Source of the DNA: Alcanivoracaceae bacterium
GTDB lineage: Bacteria > Pseudomonadota > Gammaproteobacteria > Pseudomonadales > Alcanivoracaceae
Assembly: GCA_002706085.1 (NCBI GenBank)
Contig: PAJO01000041.1
Span: forward strand, 1-64,000
Reading direction: 5' to 3'
DNA: 64,000 nucleotides
A model generated the notes under the pieces. That model was given only the letters and a program-made list of their open reading frames with translations, had not been told where the DNA came from and searched no databases. Position numbers and translations under genes: made by a program. Shown piece by piece: positions 2,977 to 59,402 of this stretch. Numbering within the stretch: position 1 is the stretch's first letter; every line of letters starts with the position of its first letter.

Positions 2977-3004
2977 TGTTCACTGTTAACTATTCACCGT
3001 TCAC
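2977..3004 (-). repeat. heptad array (site E1)
   Basis: Four 7-bp units on the minus strand: GTGAACG, GTGAATA, GTTAACA, GTGAACA. The array starts 4 nt after the hydrolase stop codon and leads to the terminator 2913-2940. TGA, TAG and TAA codons in the units cover all three minus-strand frames. One of at least nine heptad sites in the window. Confidence 0.85.
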
Positions 3005-8174: not shown

Positions 8175-8254
8175 TATCTACTGCTCTTGCTAAACTCACG
8201 CGAACCAGCTTGATGCCCGGACCATCCTCAAGGAGTGGCAGGCGGTGAACAAGC

Positions 8255-8406
8255 AGTTGAAAGTTCAAAGTTTAAAGTTGAAAAGCGCGAGACAGGCAGT
8301 GCTATTTGATCCGCCTTACCCGCGCCCGAACGTCAAGCGCGGGCGCGGCGCTGGAAGCCCTCTCAACGTCATCCGCGTTTTAACTTTAAACTTTGAACTT
8401 TCAACT
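8255..8406. repeat. heptad inverted-repeat element (site E2)
   Basis: The left arm 8255-8282 is four units: AGTTGAA, AGTTCAA, AGTTTAA, AGTTGAA. The right arm 8379-8406, read on the opposite strand, is AGTTGAA, AGTTCAA, AGTTTAA, AGTTAAA. The arms therefore match at 27 of 28 bases with the unit order kept. CGCG-containing sequence follows each arm inward, and a GC-rich hairpin lies near 8320-8350. The 152-bp element fills the divergent gap between the VOC gene and hemB. Nothing else is seen in the 310-bp gap. Confidence 0.9.
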
Positions 8407-8439
8407 CACCCCCCCCCGTCGCAAACAACACTCTCATGA

Positions 8440-9489
<1,050 letters not shown>

Positions 9490-19664: not shown

Positions 19665-19741
19665 TAGCTTGTAGCTTGTAGCTTGTAGCTTGTAGCTTGT
19701 AGCTTGTAGCTTGTAGCTCACAGCTGATAGCTGAGAGCTTA
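19665..19741. repeat. long heptad array (site E3)
   Basis: Eleven 7-bp units. Seven perfect copies of TAGCTTG (19665-19713) are followed by TAGCTCA, CAGCTGA, TAGCTGA and GAGCTTA. TAG or TGA recurs every 7 bases, so all three plus-strand frames are closed. The array lies 62 bp upstream of the ubiD start, with no partner arm found between rho and ubiD. The homogeneous core suggests recent expansion and possible length variation. Confidence 0.92.
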
Positions 19742-19802: not shown

Positions 19803-21278
19803 ATGAAATACCGCGATCTGCGTGACTTCATTACCCAGCTGGAACAGCGCGGGGAACTCAAACGCATCACCGTGCCGGTGGACCCGAATCTGGAAATGAC
19901 CGAAATCTGCGACCGCACCCTGCGCGCAGGTGGCCCGGCCTTGCTGTTCGAAAATCCGAAAGGGTTCGGCACCCCGGTGCTGGGCAACCTGTTCGGCACC
20001 GAACGCCGGGTGGCGCTGGGCATGGGCCGGGAGTCACTGGAAGAGCTGCGAGAGCTCGGCGAACTGCTGGCGTTTCTGAAAGAACCGGAGCCTCCCAAAG
20101 GCTTCCGCGACGCCTGGGAAAAACTGCCGGTGTTTCGCAAGGTATTGAGCATGTCGCCCAAGGTGTCCAGCAGCGGCCCCTGCCAGGAAAAGGTCCTGGA
20201 AGGCGACGAGGTGGATCTGTACCAGCTACCGATCCAGACTTGCTGGCCCGGCGATGCCGGCCCACTGGTCTCCTGGCCGCTGGTAATTACCCGTGGCCCC
20301 CACAAGGAACGCCAGAACCTGGGCATCTACCGCCAGCAACTGATCGGCCGCAACAAACTGATCATGCGCTGGCTGAGCCACCGTGGCGGCGCCCTGGATT
20401 TCCAGGAATGGCAGCAAACGCATCCCGGCGAGCCGTTCCCGGTCTCGGTTGCCCTGGGCGCCGATCCTGCCACCATTCTTGGTGCCGTCACCCCGGTTCC
20501 GGACACGCTCAGCGAGTATGCCTTCGCCGGCCTGCTGCGCGGCTCCAAAACCGAACTGGTGAAATGCATCGGCAACGACCTGCAGGTGCCTTCTAGCGCG
20601 GAATTCGTCCTCGAGGGGCATATCTACCCGGATGAAATGGCCGATGAAGGTCCATTCGGTGACCACACCGGTTACTACAATGAAGTTGAGCGGTTCCCGG
20701 TGTTCACTGTAGAGCGCATCACGCACCGTCGCGACCCGATCTATCACAGCACCTACACCGGCCGCCCACCGGACGAGCCCGCGGTGCTGGGCGTAGCCAT
20801 GAACGAAATTTTCGTGCCGATTTTGCGAAAGCAGTTCCCGGAAATCGTGGACTTCTATCTGCCCCCGGAAGGCTGCTCGTACCGCATGGCAGTCGTGACC
20901 ATGAAGAAGCAGTACCCCGGCCATGCCAAGCGCGTAATGATGGGCGTGTGGTCGTTCCTGCGCCAGTTCATGTACACCAAGTTCGTGATCGTCTGCGACG
21001 ACGACGTGAATGCCCGCGACTGGAAAGATGTGATGTGGGCCATCACCACTCGCATGGACCCGGCCCGCGATACCGTGATGGTCGAAAACACCCCCATCGA
21101 CTATCTCGATTTCGCCTCCCCGGTGGCCGGCCTGGGTTCCAAGATGGGCCTGGACGCCACCAGCAAACTCCCCGGCGAAACCACCCGCGAATGGGGCCGC
21201 GCTATCAGCATGGACAAGGCGGTCAAGGAGAAGGTGGATGCGATGTGGGAGAGTCTCGGCATCGACAGTGAACAGTGA
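19803..21278 (+). CDS. ubiD: 3-octaprenyl-4-hydroxybenzoate decarboxylase UbiD
   Basis: Prenylated-FMN-dependent decarboxylase of ubiquinone synthesis. The 491-aa protein starts with [20 protein letters not shown], identical in style to proteobacterial Ubi[21 protein letters not shown] and the E-R-E catalytic region ([12 protein letters not shown], and [14 protein letters not shown]) are present. The last codons and the stop (GAC AGT GAA CAG TGA) lie within the first units of a heptad array, so the repeat supplies the C-terminus and stop codon. Confidence 0.96.
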
Positions 21279-21448
21279 ACAGTGAACAGTGAACAGTGAA
21301 GGCTGCGCGAGCCGCATAACGTGTCACGTTTTTTCTTTGCTTTTTAACGCGTGAGGCAGCCCCAAATTCACGTCGCGGGCACTTTCATCGCAATAACAAC
21401 GACGCGCAATCGCGCCGCTGTTCACTGTTAACTATTCACTGTTAACTG
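21266..21448. repeat. heptad inverted-repeat element (site E4)
   Basis: Left arm: five perfect CAGTGAA units at 21266-21300, the first two inside the ubiD reading frame. Right arm 21421-21448, read in reverse: CAGTTAA, CAGTGAA, TAGTTAA, CAGTGAA. The 113-bp interior has GCGCGAGCCGC-type sequence next to each arm. Stops in all three frames face inward from both sides. No gene is seen between ubiD and 21491. Confidence 0.9.
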
Positions 21449-32208: not shown

Positions 32209-32236
32209 AACTCAAAGCTCAAAGCTCGTAGCTGAT
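32209..32236 (-). repeat. heptad array (site E5)
   Basis: Four units on the plus strand: AACTCAA, AGCTCAA, AGCTCGT, AGCTGAT. On the minus strand TGA recurs every 7 bases and closes all three frames. It lies beyond the terminator of the acyl-CoA dehydrogenase gene. No partner arm is seen. Confidence 0.75.
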
Positions 32237-48089: not shown

Positions 48090-48250
48090 AAGCTGTCAGC
48101 TGTGAGCTATGAGCTGCGAGAAAAAGACGCGCCACAGCCATCCTTTAACCCAATGCCATTCCCGCACTCAAACGATAAGGCGCGGGCACAGAGGTCGAAA
48201 ATTGACACCTCTTCCCGCGCCTCGTAGCTGGTAGCTCACAGCTCGTAGCT
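48090..48250. repeat. heptad inverted-repeat element (site E6)
   Basis: Left arm 48090-48117: AAGCTGT, CAGCTGT, GAGCTAT, GAGCTGC. Right arm 48223-48250: CGTAGCT, GGTAGCT, CACAGCT, CGTAGCT. All units share AGCT. Between them is a large hairpin (48178-48222) with stem AGGCGCGGG/CCCGCGCCT and an inner AGAGGT/ACCTCT stem. The right arm starts 3 bases after the proC stop. It divides proC from yggT. Confidence 0.88.
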
Positions 48251-51071: not shown

Positions 51072-52193
51072 ATGGAATTCGAAGAGCTCCTCAAACTGAT
51101 GGTCCAGAAAGGCGGTTCCGACCTATTCATTACCGCCGGCGTACCTCCCAGCATGAAAGTCCACGGCAAGATTCTGCCGGTGACCAAGAACGCCCTCACC
51201 CCCGACATGACCCGGGATATCGTTTTCGGTGTGATGACCGAAAAACAGCGTAAGGATTTCGTCCAACAGCACGAGTGTAACTTCGCCATCTCCGCCCGCG
51301 GCATTGGCCGTTTCCGGGTCTCGGCCTTTTACCAGCGCAACCTGGTCGGCATGGTGCTGCGACGTATTGAAACCAAGATTCCCAATGTGGATGACCTACG
51401 TTTACCGCCGGTGATCAAGGAACTGGCCATGACAAAGCGTGGCCTGGTGATTTTCGTGGGTGCCACCGGTACCGGTAAATCCACCTCGCTGGCGTCCATG
51501 ATTGGCCACCGCAACAAGAATTCCAAGGGTCACATCATCACCATCGAGGACCCCATCGAATTCATTCACCAGCATCAGGGCTGCATCGTGACCCAGCGCG
51601 AAGTGGGCATCGACACCGACAGCTTTGAAGTGGCGTTGAAGAATACCCTGCGTCAGGCGCCTGATGTGATTCTGATTGGTGAGATCCGCACCCGGGAAAC
51701 CATGGACAAGGCCATCGCCTTCGCCGAAACCGGTCACCTGTGTCTGGCCACCCTGCACGCCAACAACGCCAACCAGGCGCTGGACCGGATCATTCACTTC
51801 TTCCCGGCCGATATGCACGACCAGCTGTGGATGGACCTGTCACTGAACATGAAAGGCATTGTTGCCCAGCAGCTGATCCCCACCCCCGACGGCAAGGGTC
51901 GCCGCGCGGCCATTGAAGTTCTGCTCGGCACGCCGCTGGTGCAGGATCACATCCGCAAGGGTGAAGTGCACATGCTCAAGGAGCTGATGAGCAAATCCCG
52001 CGAACAAGGCATGCAGACCTTCGACCAAGCCCTGTATGACCTCTATTCCGCCGGCGAAATCACCTACGAAGACGCCATGCTCCACGCCGACTCGCCCAAC
52101 GATCTGCGCCTGATGATCAAGCTTGGCAACGAAACCGATGCCTCAAGCCTGGATATCGCCACACGCGGGTTGAGCATCGAGGACACGGAATAA
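51072..52193 (+). CDS. pilU: type IV pilus ATPase PilU
   Basis: PilT paralogue (373 aa) that assists pilus retraction in a PilT-dependent way. Walker A is GATGTGKSTS near residue 130; the Asp box is TIEDPIEFIHQHQGCIVTQREVG, split here for reading. PilU has its longer C-terminus (DSPNDLRLMIKLGNE). AGGAG sits between the pilT stop and this ATG, so the pair is an operon. A heptad array starts 3 bases after the stop codon. Confidence 0.96.
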   Translation: MEFEELLKLMVQKGGSDLFITAGVPPSMKVHGKILPVTKNALTPDMTRDIVFGVMTEKQRKDFVQQHECNFAISARGIGRFRVSAFYQRNLVGMVLRRIETKIPNVDDLRLPPVIKELAMTKRGLVIFVGATGTGKSTSLASMIGHRNKNSKGHIITIEDPIEFIHQHQGCIVTQREVGIDTDSFEVALKNTLRQAPDVILIGEIRTRETMDKAIAFAETGHLCLATLHANNANQALDRIIHFFPADMHDQLWMDLSLNMKGIVAQQLIPTPDGKGRRAAIEVLLGTPLVQDHIRKGEVHMLKELMSKSREQGMQTFDQALYDLYSAGEITYEDAMLHADSPNDLRLMIKLGNETDASSLDIATRGLSIEDTE

Positions 52194-52196
52194 AAG

Positions 52197-52224
52197 TAGT
52201 TAACAATTAACAGTGAAGAGTGAA
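52197..52224 (+). repeat. heptad array (site E7)
   Basis: Units TAGTTAA, CAATTAA, CAGTGAA, GAGTGAA directly after the pilU stop; next TAGCTAC. TAG, TAA and TGA codons cover all three frames. The next features are a CGCGGGG stretch and the terminator at 52261. Confidence 0.88.
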
Positions 52225-57145: not shown

Positions 57146-57173
57146 TTAATTATTCACTGTTAACTATTAATTG
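57146..57173 (-). repeat. heptad array (site E8)
   Basis: Minus-strand units CAATTAA, TAGTTAA, CAGTGAA, TAATTAA. The acr3 stop codon TAA is in the first unit. All three frames are closed. Confidence 0.85.
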
Positions 57174-59034: not shown

Positions 59035-59054
59035 ATATCCGGAAATACGGATAT
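59035..59054. promoter_or_regulatory. candidate ArsR operator
   Basis: ATATCCGGAAATACGGATAT, perfect 6-bp arms ATATCC/GGATAT. Just upstream of arsR, where ArsR autorepression is expected. Confidence 0.6.
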
Positions 59055-59060
59055 TAAAGG

Positions 59061-59109
59061 TGCAAGCTACAAGCTTCAAGCTGCAACGCGGGAAAGATTT
59101 ATTCCCGCG
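59061..59109. repeat. heptad array plus hairpin (site E9, left)
   Basis: Units TGCAAGC, TACAAGC, TTCAAGC, TGCAACG at 59061-59088, followed by a perfect hairpin CGCGGGAA/TTCCCGCG at 59087-59109. It lies upstream of arsR. Confidence 0.8.
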
Positions 59110-59145
59110 GGCAGGCATGTGGCCGCGCTTAGAAGCACAACCTTG

Positions 59146-59321
59146 CCGTAGGAGCGTCGCTCGCGGCGCGATTCTGGCGCTGGATCAGAAACCTTTTCAC
59201 CACAGAGGCCACAGAGCACACAGAGATAACCCTTGTTTTAACTCAGTGATCTCTGTGGCCTCTGTGGTAAATCCGCCTTTAAAGGCGCAAGGTAATCGCG
59301 CCGCGAGCGACGCTCCTACGG
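59146..59321. repeat. 176-bp element with perfect 28-bp terminal inverted repeats
   Basis: The outer 28 bp (59146-59173 and 59294-59321) are identical in inverted orientation, starting CCGTAGGAGCGTCGCTCGCG. Within is a second perfect 18-bp inverted repeat, ACCACAGAGGCCACAGAG (59199-59216) with its complement at 59251-59268. The ends are REP-type (GTAGGAGCG...GCGCGAT). No ORF. It is MITE- or BIME-like and shares pieces with 52305-52618. Confidence 0.88.
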
Positions 59322-59333
59322 AAATCCAAACAA

Positions 59334-59361
59334 AAAACCCGACCTTGTCGGGCCGGGTTTT
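59334..59361 (-). terminator. terminator of the pst-phoU operon
   Basis: Stem AAAACCCG/CGGGTTTT, with GTCGGGTTTTTTG at its minus-strand end. Confidence 0.85.
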
Positions 59362-59363
59362 CC

Positions 59364-59391
59364 TTGTAGCTTGTAGTTTGTAGCTTGTAGC
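59364..59391. repeat. heptad array (site E9, right)
   Basis: Units TTGTAGC, TTGTAGT, TTGTAGC, TTGTAGC. Its complement matches the style of the left arm at 59061. The array lies 11 bases from the phoU stop and just before the terminator. Confidence 0.85.
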
Positions 59392-59402
59392 TTAAGGCTG
59401 CT

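Follow-up and report, generated by a model that had tools for sequence, protein, structure and literature searches.

Dispersed palindromes with arms of four 7-bp units near gene 3′ ends in Alcanivoracaceae and their likeness to REP sequences

The tetranucleotides GTAG and CGTC are markers of two super-families of REP sequences. REPs are found mostly between convergent or co-directional open reading frames, adjoin 3′ ends and can provide the stop codon (PMC3733652). REPINs are inverted REP doublets that form hairpins and are tied to RAYTs (PMC3116915). REPs located at most 15 nt from a stop codon in E. coli have been reported to stall ribosomes (PMC12306157, citing Liang 2015). Repeats with 7-bp units are also described. 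The GGGANTN heptads of Xanthomonas have variable positions, mostly number four and are mostly intergenic; two nearby sites are often inverted, sites are rare between divergent open reading frames, and the distance is 28 nt to the upstream frame vs 160 nt to the downstream one. These heptads are G-rich and have been studied as G-quadruplex formers (PMC4692102). The TAACTGA heptamers of Beggiatoaceae are intergenic direct repeats, with one indirect case, and mostly lie just before start codons (PMC4679880). Two further systems have a similar form. A chloroplast spacer holds a short segment that is bounded by inverted repeats of about 18 bp and frequently inverts, even inside one species (PMC2903610), and intrastrand triplex repeats likewise make inverted pairs, with a different motif (PMC4666352).

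The window analyzed here is a stretch of 64,000 nucleotides from an Alcanivoracaceae bacterium (contig PAJO01000041.1) with a G+C content of 58%. An earlier note, made from the letters of this stretch, described intergenic arrays with a strict 7-bp period, often arranged as inverted pairs around a hairpin, and recognized no named family. The class does have relatives: both REP/BIME sequences and the Xanthomonas heptads have a like placement and a partly like layout. The positions of the arrays are given in Table 1. All nine sites named earlier hold period-7 arrays, eight by the main scan and the site at 57146 by a more permissive scan only.

Table 1. Heptad arrays and element parts in the window
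Feature	Position	Strand	Basis or context
First element (hemB spacer), 5′ arm, four AGTTNAA, N = G,C,T,G	8255..8282	+	sequence, period 7, arm identity 27/28
First element, core between arms, CGCG at 8286-8289 and 8374-8377	8283..8378	.	same orientation in G008, inverted in G009
First element, central GC hairpin, CCCGCGC / GCGCGGG	8319..8343	.	read from sequence; paired in RNA fold
First element, 3′ arm, four AGTTNAA on minus strand, N = G,C,T,A	8379..8406	-	sequence, inverted repeat, 27/28
Second element, 5′ arm, five CAGTGAA units	21266..21300	+	overlaps stop codon of gene ending 21278
Second element, 3′ arm, AGTKAAY units	21421..21448	-	period-7 scan, arm comparison
Third paired element, 5′ arm, AGCTNNN units	48090..48120	+	period-7 scan, arm pairing
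Third element, 3′ arm	48222..48250	-	5 bp from stop of minus-strand gene ending 48256
Fourth pair, 5′ arm, AAGCTNC units	59061..59088	+	period-7 scan, sequence
Fourth pair, 3′ arm	59364..59391	-	11 bp from stop of phoU-like gene ending 59403
Single array AGTKAAY	2977..3004	-	4 bp from stop of gene ending 3009
Single long array, TAGCTTG and variants	19665..19741	+	downstream of rho
Single array CTCAAAG	32209..32236	-	62 bp from stop of gene ending 32299
Single array AGTKAAY	52197..52224	+	3 bp past stop at 52193
Single array, AGTTAAT type	57146..57173	-	overlaps stop of gene ending 57167

The element in the hemB spacer is an imperfect palindrome of 152 bp, and each arm consists of four AGTTNAA heptads. 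A recount of the arms confirms the identity of 27 of 28 bases claimed before. The inverted-repeat search reports a 33-nt repeat here, 94% complementary, with a spacing of 86 nt, and the RNA fold of this copy has a predicted energy of -73.9 kcal/mol. Congener G008 has the same element at this spot, in G009 the core is turned around between the arms, G012 carries an AGTNNCG element instead, and G015 and G004 have none. The spacer upstream of hemB (8175–8484, with orthologues L178–L194) also shows a GATGCC..GGCATC hairpin that is kept in several congeners; the heptad element occupies its loop.

Two parts of the earlier description, pairing and CGCG, suit the main type but overreach when applied to every site. 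Inverted pairs are present at four of the nine sites and the other five are single arrays. The CGCG sequence said to follow usually inward is no more than about 12 bases away from the inner end in 9 of 13 arrays tested. The inward GC hairpin is present in the first element; the interior of 59061–59391 displays nested inverted repeats and not one GC hairpin. At 59054–59400 a CCGTAGGAGCG..CGCTCCTACGG pair, which is presumably REP-like, encloses a CCACAGAGGCCACAGAG pair, all between the heptad arms, so that these are palindromes one inside another. Units of the AGCTNNN and CGTCNGA families (e.g. at 19665–19741 and at L018 8258–8292) contain GTAG or CGTC, which may be due to chance.

The 7-bp period stands out against other periods in each sample analyzed. 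Arrays were detected by a lag-7 identity scan, with the same scan at other periods as control. The window has 11 period-7 arrays vs four at period 4 and none or one at periods 5, 6 and 8–14. A sample of 459,559 bases of the same genome (G000), consisting of stretches picked from contigs with BLAST matches, has 73, and the remaining periods between 4 and 21 yield six at most. In G008, an even 10% sample (20 stretches of 20 kb) has 58 arrays. The earlier note proposed a comparison of inverted arrays with shuffled sequence; with single arrays counted, ten order-2 Markov shuffles of this 400-kb sample give 0–3 each. Its other periods give none at 4, 5, 8, 10–13 and 15–20 and 1, 6 and 16 at periods 3, 6 and 9, while the multiples of 7 give seven (period 14) and four (period 21). 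Two stretches of G008, L218 14222–14814 and L219 428–1020, display identical array pairs with equal spacing 186 kb apart; they are a repeated stretch, thus two of the 58 arrays are counted twice. Extrapolation gives several hundred arrays per genome. Except for the even G008 sample, stretches were picked by contig matches, around known elements or by synteny, and totals of arrays and elements in the whole set of 1.82 Mb are therefore not genome-wide rates.

The units were sorted by eye into AGTTNAA, AGTKAAY (with a variant, AGTTGAY) and AGCTNNN, and further into GCGTGNN, CGTCNGA, AGTNNCG and GCRTCNG. In the pairs inspected each site has one unit family that is common to both arms. Very long, near-pure arrays with no fixed number of units (e.g. 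of ACGCCTG or AGCTACG) occur at L198 16971–17108, L219 19727–19890, L231 272–464 and L221 10633–10730. Contigs of the own assembly terminate at or near long AGCTATC arrays (L015 16383–16468 and L026 1–78), thus such arrays seem to break assembly.

The AGTTNAA type has a fixed architecture, and this bears out the earlier claim of a defined element class: arms of four units, a core of about 100 bp and many dispersed copies. It is a palindrome of 150–165 bp that reads four heptads, CGCG, a GC-rich core of about 100 bp, CGCG, and four heptads. A scan of the stretches and loci analyzed that demanded at least four units per arm gave 67 unique elements. Of these, 66 have exactly four and four units, with an inner length of 96–100 in 52 of them, and one has five and four. 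A looser rule of at least three units still gives 42 four-and-four elements among 50 in G008. The core is common to the elements and is itself partly palindromic (alignment of 15, two or three of them incomplete). Across 61 aligned copies the fixed paired heptad positions are kept in 58–61, much of the core is 40%–70% conserved, and the RNAalifold consensus pairs only the arms and the adjoining CGCG. Among the consensus pairs one exceeds the shuffles in double changes: the N column of unit 3, the only one of the four N columns that was paired and tested, displays 19 vs a shuffle mean of 8 and a maximum of 16 in 200 shuffles. A search of the own genome with a 251-bp site gave 32 matches, several of which are one element found on the opposite strand. 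G008 has 45 complete AGTTNAA sites (67 matches collapsed by hand).

Arrays are concentrated behind genes. Gene calls from a purpose-written codon-usage script place 392 of the 425 arrays in 1.82 Mb of six genomes between genes; 33 lie inside called genes or at the ends of stretches. The intergenic arrays are found in 117 convergent, 244 co-directional and 31 divergent cases, and the comparison set of gaps no shorter than 100 bp between genes comprises 181, 439 and 226 respectively. Stop-facing array ends (n = 501) lie at most 15 bp from the stop in 41% of cases, vs 11% on random placement in the same regions; for start-facing ends (n = 311) and start codons the values are 7% vs 9%. Called neighbors are available for 137 of 138 inverted pairs, and these are 38 convergent, 87 co-directional and 12 divergent. 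Among the convergent pairs, both arms are within 15 bp of both stops in 23, one arm in 11 and none in four. An arm lies within 15 bp of the upstream stop in 63 of the 87 co-directional pairs. If array-free gaps were hit uniformly, 15% would be expected for both stops of convergent pairs and 33% for the upstream stop of co-directional ones; weighting the gaps by length gives 0.5% and 9%. The element at hemB is an exception in placement, as it lies between the starts of a glyoxalase-like gene (80 bp) and of hemB (78 bp) and has no neighboring stop.

AGTTNAA arms that lie within 25 bp of a stop number 51, and 20 of these overlap the stop codon itself (offsets -1, -2 and -6). The shared form is TG[A]GTT in 12, T[AG]TT in three, and in five the stop is inside the first unit. 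The 7-bp step was also considered as a device that supplies stop codons in all three frames. The test gave no support for this: stops in all frames are present in 54 of 208 stop-near arrays on the gene strand and 25 of 208 on the other strand, vs 108 of 208 in the letter-reversed control.

Comparison between species shows both turnover and inversion. In 130 orthologous site-by-species comparisons of fetched stretches (core 70–160 bp), 86 have no recognizable common core, 35 have the core in the same orientation and nine have it inverted, at eight unique sites; the 86 point to a high turnover, and the inversion counts thus come from few sites. Nine of the 44 comparisons with a shared core are therefore inverted. 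Where both species have good arms (at least 22 bp with 90% identity) five of 11 are inverted, and otherwise four of 33 (Fisher P = 0.03, which is only a guide since comparisons share sites and the hemB site is counted twice). The cleanest case is G008 s273:2365 compared with G012, where the innermost unit has travelled with the core and the outer flanks are unmoved. Arm families at inverted sites include AGTTNAA, AGTTGAY and AGCTNCA. Inverted cores are 88%–94% identical to the orthologue over the aligned part (seven of eight sites), while paralogous cores of G008 have means of 0.41–0.67 by distance class, in a measure that differs from the orthologue identity; independent insertion in opposite orientation is thus unlikely.

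One family can also stand in the place of another. C54:2845 carries AGTTNAA in G000 and AGCTNNN in G015, and C41:48087, which is the third element of the window, carries AGCTNNN in G000 and AGTNNCG in G015; the flanks are closely similar in both cases. Such swaps were seen at additional spots. No target-site duplication was recognized by eye at spots with swapped families.

The arms of a site were said earlier to agree and to be kept alike by pairing or gene conversion. The first part stands for the unit family, which is one per inspected pair, and is moderate at the variable base. The two arms of AGTTNAA elements agree at the variable base in 59% of cases vs 46% after random reassignment of the 3′ arms to other elements (s.d. 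2.8%, and 54% in the highest of 2000 shuffles). By a stricter measure, i.e. all four variable bases equal, 24% of elements in the 67-element set qualify vs a shuffle mean of 11%, and the highest shuffle (26%) is not exceeded. Agreement is therefore real yet partial and weaker than it looked, and the shared family motif accounts for most of the arm identity at a site. The second part has in its favor the core inversion at eight sites, since flipping of the core means that the arms of one site do exchange or recombine, and one case of concerted change: G-C-T-G is present in both arms at G000 C31:28221, and G-A-T-G in both arms of the G008 orthologue. Against it stands the merely partial agreement of the arms. 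Some arms do change independently, which is in part what the earlier note said would refute its reading. The element at 21266–21448 is present in all six genomes, and its 5′ arm of pure CAGTGAA has 5 units in G000, 15 in G015, 9 in G012 and 8 in G009, whereas the 3′ arm has about four. At a second spot with a pure array of this kind the numbers are 11, 16, 3, 12 and 12 in G008, G012, G009, G015 and G004.

A three-unit AGTTNAA pattern is present in all 17 genomes of the genus, with 1 to 408 matches each. Elsewhere in the family it occurs in three of 19 genomes, which belong to one further genus, and other families of the order have it in none of 21, a total of 20 of 57. The backward pattern used as control also matches in some of these genomes; counted by genome and strand, it gives 0–10 matches within the genus and as many as 12 within the further one. 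Core similarity in G008 drops with distance, from 0.665 under 5 kb to 0.408 above 1 Mb. Cores less than 50 kb apart have a mean similarity of 0.565 vs 0.439 when permuted (maximum 0.547 of 1000), and the region 3.25–3.75 Mb, an eighth of the chromosome, holds 21 of the 45 complete elements.

Four-unit AGTTNAA arrays are found in at least 119 stretches across many phyla, but a sample of the class gives matches in only four of 274 genomes, and one of the four is the own genome. Paired arms of this form occur in named records of Alcanivorax and Alloalcanivorax, among others; together with the G+C content of 58%, this suggests that the window probably comes from Alcanivorax. For 73 loci outside the Alcanivoracaceae, among the 80 matches listed, stop-facing ends are within 15 bp in 45% vs 25% on random placement and start-facing ends in 37% vs 29%, where gene calls are the naive longest open reading frame. 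Stop anchoring is thus weaker outside the family than in the home genus. Loci L065, L066, L100, L101 and L105 (cyanobacteria and Bacteroidota) display additional arrays of GGCAGAG, AACGAGA, CTATCGT and GGTTAGT, some as inverted pairs.

The genus also has RAYT (Y1) genes, seven of them in the own genome. The AGTTNAA core was looked for in 19 RAYT neighborhoods of four genomes (all seven matches of G000, five of six in G008, three of four in G009 and four of five in G012) and was found in none, and mobilization of this type by an adjoining RAYT gene was therefore rejected. The numbers of RAYT genes and AGTTNAA matches are correlated in the 17 congeners (rho 0.55, P 0.02), thus action of RAYT in trans may be possible. 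One of the 19 neighborhoods, L320 (G009 C11:116400–119800), has a RAYT gene flanked on both sides by AGTNNCG arrays, each within GTAGGAGCGCCACTTGAGGCGCGAA repeats; on either side the arrays sit in GTAGGAGCG repeats. This suggests a possible link of one heptad family to REPINs.

The favored explanation, held with slightly more belief than doubt, is that these elements are dispersed, REP/BIME-like extragenic palindromes at gene 3′ ends with arms of four 7-bp units. It builds on what is directly seen in layout, in the constant number of units in AGTTNAA elements, in placement at stops, in core inversion at eight sites, in family swaps and in the one-sided expansion of pure arrays. The two arms would pair, by a single-stranded-DNA hairpin, homologous recombination or template switching, and in so doing flip the core; homology alone would suffice for flipping, since three arm families flip. 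Pairing may also partly copy one arm onto the other and so even them out. When transcribed, the element would form a strong hairpin just past the stop, at the mRNA 3′ end of one or both neighbors, and by analogy with E. coli REPs it might hold up ribosomes at termination and influence mRNA decay. Copies would spread, mainly nearby, and also disappear, being for the most part selfish or tolerated sequence. The heptad repeat itself may first arise through slippage, as proposed for heptanucleotide repeats generally. Several observations stand against this explanation: the 19 RAYT neighborhoods lacking the core, the absence of a GTAG or CGTC foot from AGTTNAA elements, the partial agreement of arms, the 86 of 130 comparisons with no common core, and the location of the hemB element between gene starts.

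Other explanations account for part of the same evidence. A dedicated mobile or site-specific system, in which a transposase or recombinase reads the four-heptad arms, inserts at stops and flips the core, would explain the fixed four units (66 of 67), the arms that start at or share stop codon bases (20 of the 51), the range of copy number from 1 to 408 and the family swaps at a single spot. It is unlikely, however: flipping by several unrelated arm families favors plain homology, a site-specific system would be expected to act on one defined site, no target-site duplication was recognized by eye, and no candidate enzyme was found in a search that covered RAYT. Still less probable is that the elements are bidirectional intrinsic terminators under selection, with arm likeness required for pairing. 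The convergent and co-directional placement with few divergent cases agrees with this, as do the GAGGCCGCGCCC..GGGCGCGGCCTCTTT centers of some AGTKAAY elements and the excess of double changes at unit 3, but the latter comes from one of four N columns tested. The terminator scan found 16 sites in the region vs 13.6 in shuffles, with no terminator-like site in 8255–8406 or 21266–21448, only short T runs follow the AGTTNAA core, and arms change independently in places.

Plain heptanucleotide microsatellites, formed by polymerase slippage and paired by chance or one-off copying, are a very improbable account of the whole. Heptanucleotides are reported as the commonest class of long repeats in many prokaryotes (PMC4679880, citing Mrazek 2007), and the length of pure arrays differs between species. 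Unit number varies in the pure arrays (3–16 units) and not in AGTTNAA arms. The fixed four-unit arms, the anchoring at stops and the inverted orthologous cores count against this account; the shared AGTTNAA core already speaks against it. The least probable explanation considered is that of operator-like heptads that bind a protein with a 7-bp step. Six of seven AGTTNAA positions are near-invariant in the 61 copies and most of the core is variable, as binding sites would predict, but one genome has several unit families and the arrays are located behind stops and not in promoters.

How far the dispersed, REP/BIME-like palindromes of the favored explanation agree with the described systems can be set out as follows. 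Rfam has no match to the window at the gathering score, nor does the one viral sequence collection scanned. No report of such elements in Alcanivorax, or of heptad-armed palindromes with an inverting core, was found in a literature search that covered few subscription papers. The likeness to REP/BIME is one of abundance and placement: the heptad elements are high-copy dispersed extragenic palindromes (45 complete sites in G008; an intergenic position for 392 of the 425 arrays) that lie near 3′ ends, between convergent or co-directional genes and rarely between divergent ones. They differ in their arms of four tandem heptads and in their several unit families. The AGTTNAA type is unlike REPs in two diagnostic traits, i.e. 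it begins and ends with heptads and has no GTAG/CGTC foot (alignments, by eye), and it has no RAYT neighbor, unlike REPINs. In addition its cores invert between species, which was not found described for REPs in the literature searched.

The Xanthomonas heptads share the four 7-bp units, the inverted pairs and the location behind the upstream open reading frame (PMC4692102). The units in Alcanivoracaceae have no G runs or G-tracts, thus a quadruplex cannot explain them, and the section of PMC4692102 on these heptads mentions neither a shared core nor an inversion. A search for GGGAATC gave no match in 274 genomes of the class, and the link to Xanthomonas is thus drawn from that paper. The Beggiatoaceae heptamers are alike in being 7-bp intergenic units and differ as direct repeats at a pre-start position. 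The chloroplast case (PMC2903610) likewise has a short segment that flips, but in one spacer, whereas here the heptad-armed families are dispersed in bacteria. Site-specific invertible elements differ in turn, as three arm families flip here.

A wider proposal is doubtful although conceivable. It would place Alcanivorax AGTTNAA, Xanthomonas GGGANTN and the heptad pairs of other phyla in one general prokaryotic class of four-heptad-armed, stop-anchored, flipping palindromes, with dispersal and homogenizing machinery of its own that keeps the four-unit, 7-bp arm while unit sequence changes, the 7-bp step being that of a copying or pairing enzyme. The over-representation of heptanucleotides in bacteria was noted earlier and its cause is unsettled; as unit families here have no G runs, the quadruplex is not the common cause of heptad repeats. 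The 17 congeners with 1 to 408 AGTTNAA matches make spread, flipping and 3′-end function directly testable. The closest known kinds are REP/BIME for placement and the Xanthomonas GGGANTN repeats as nearest heptad precedent, and in the Alcanivoracaceae elements heptads are organized as the four-unit arms of REP-like palindromes that are sited at stops and flip.
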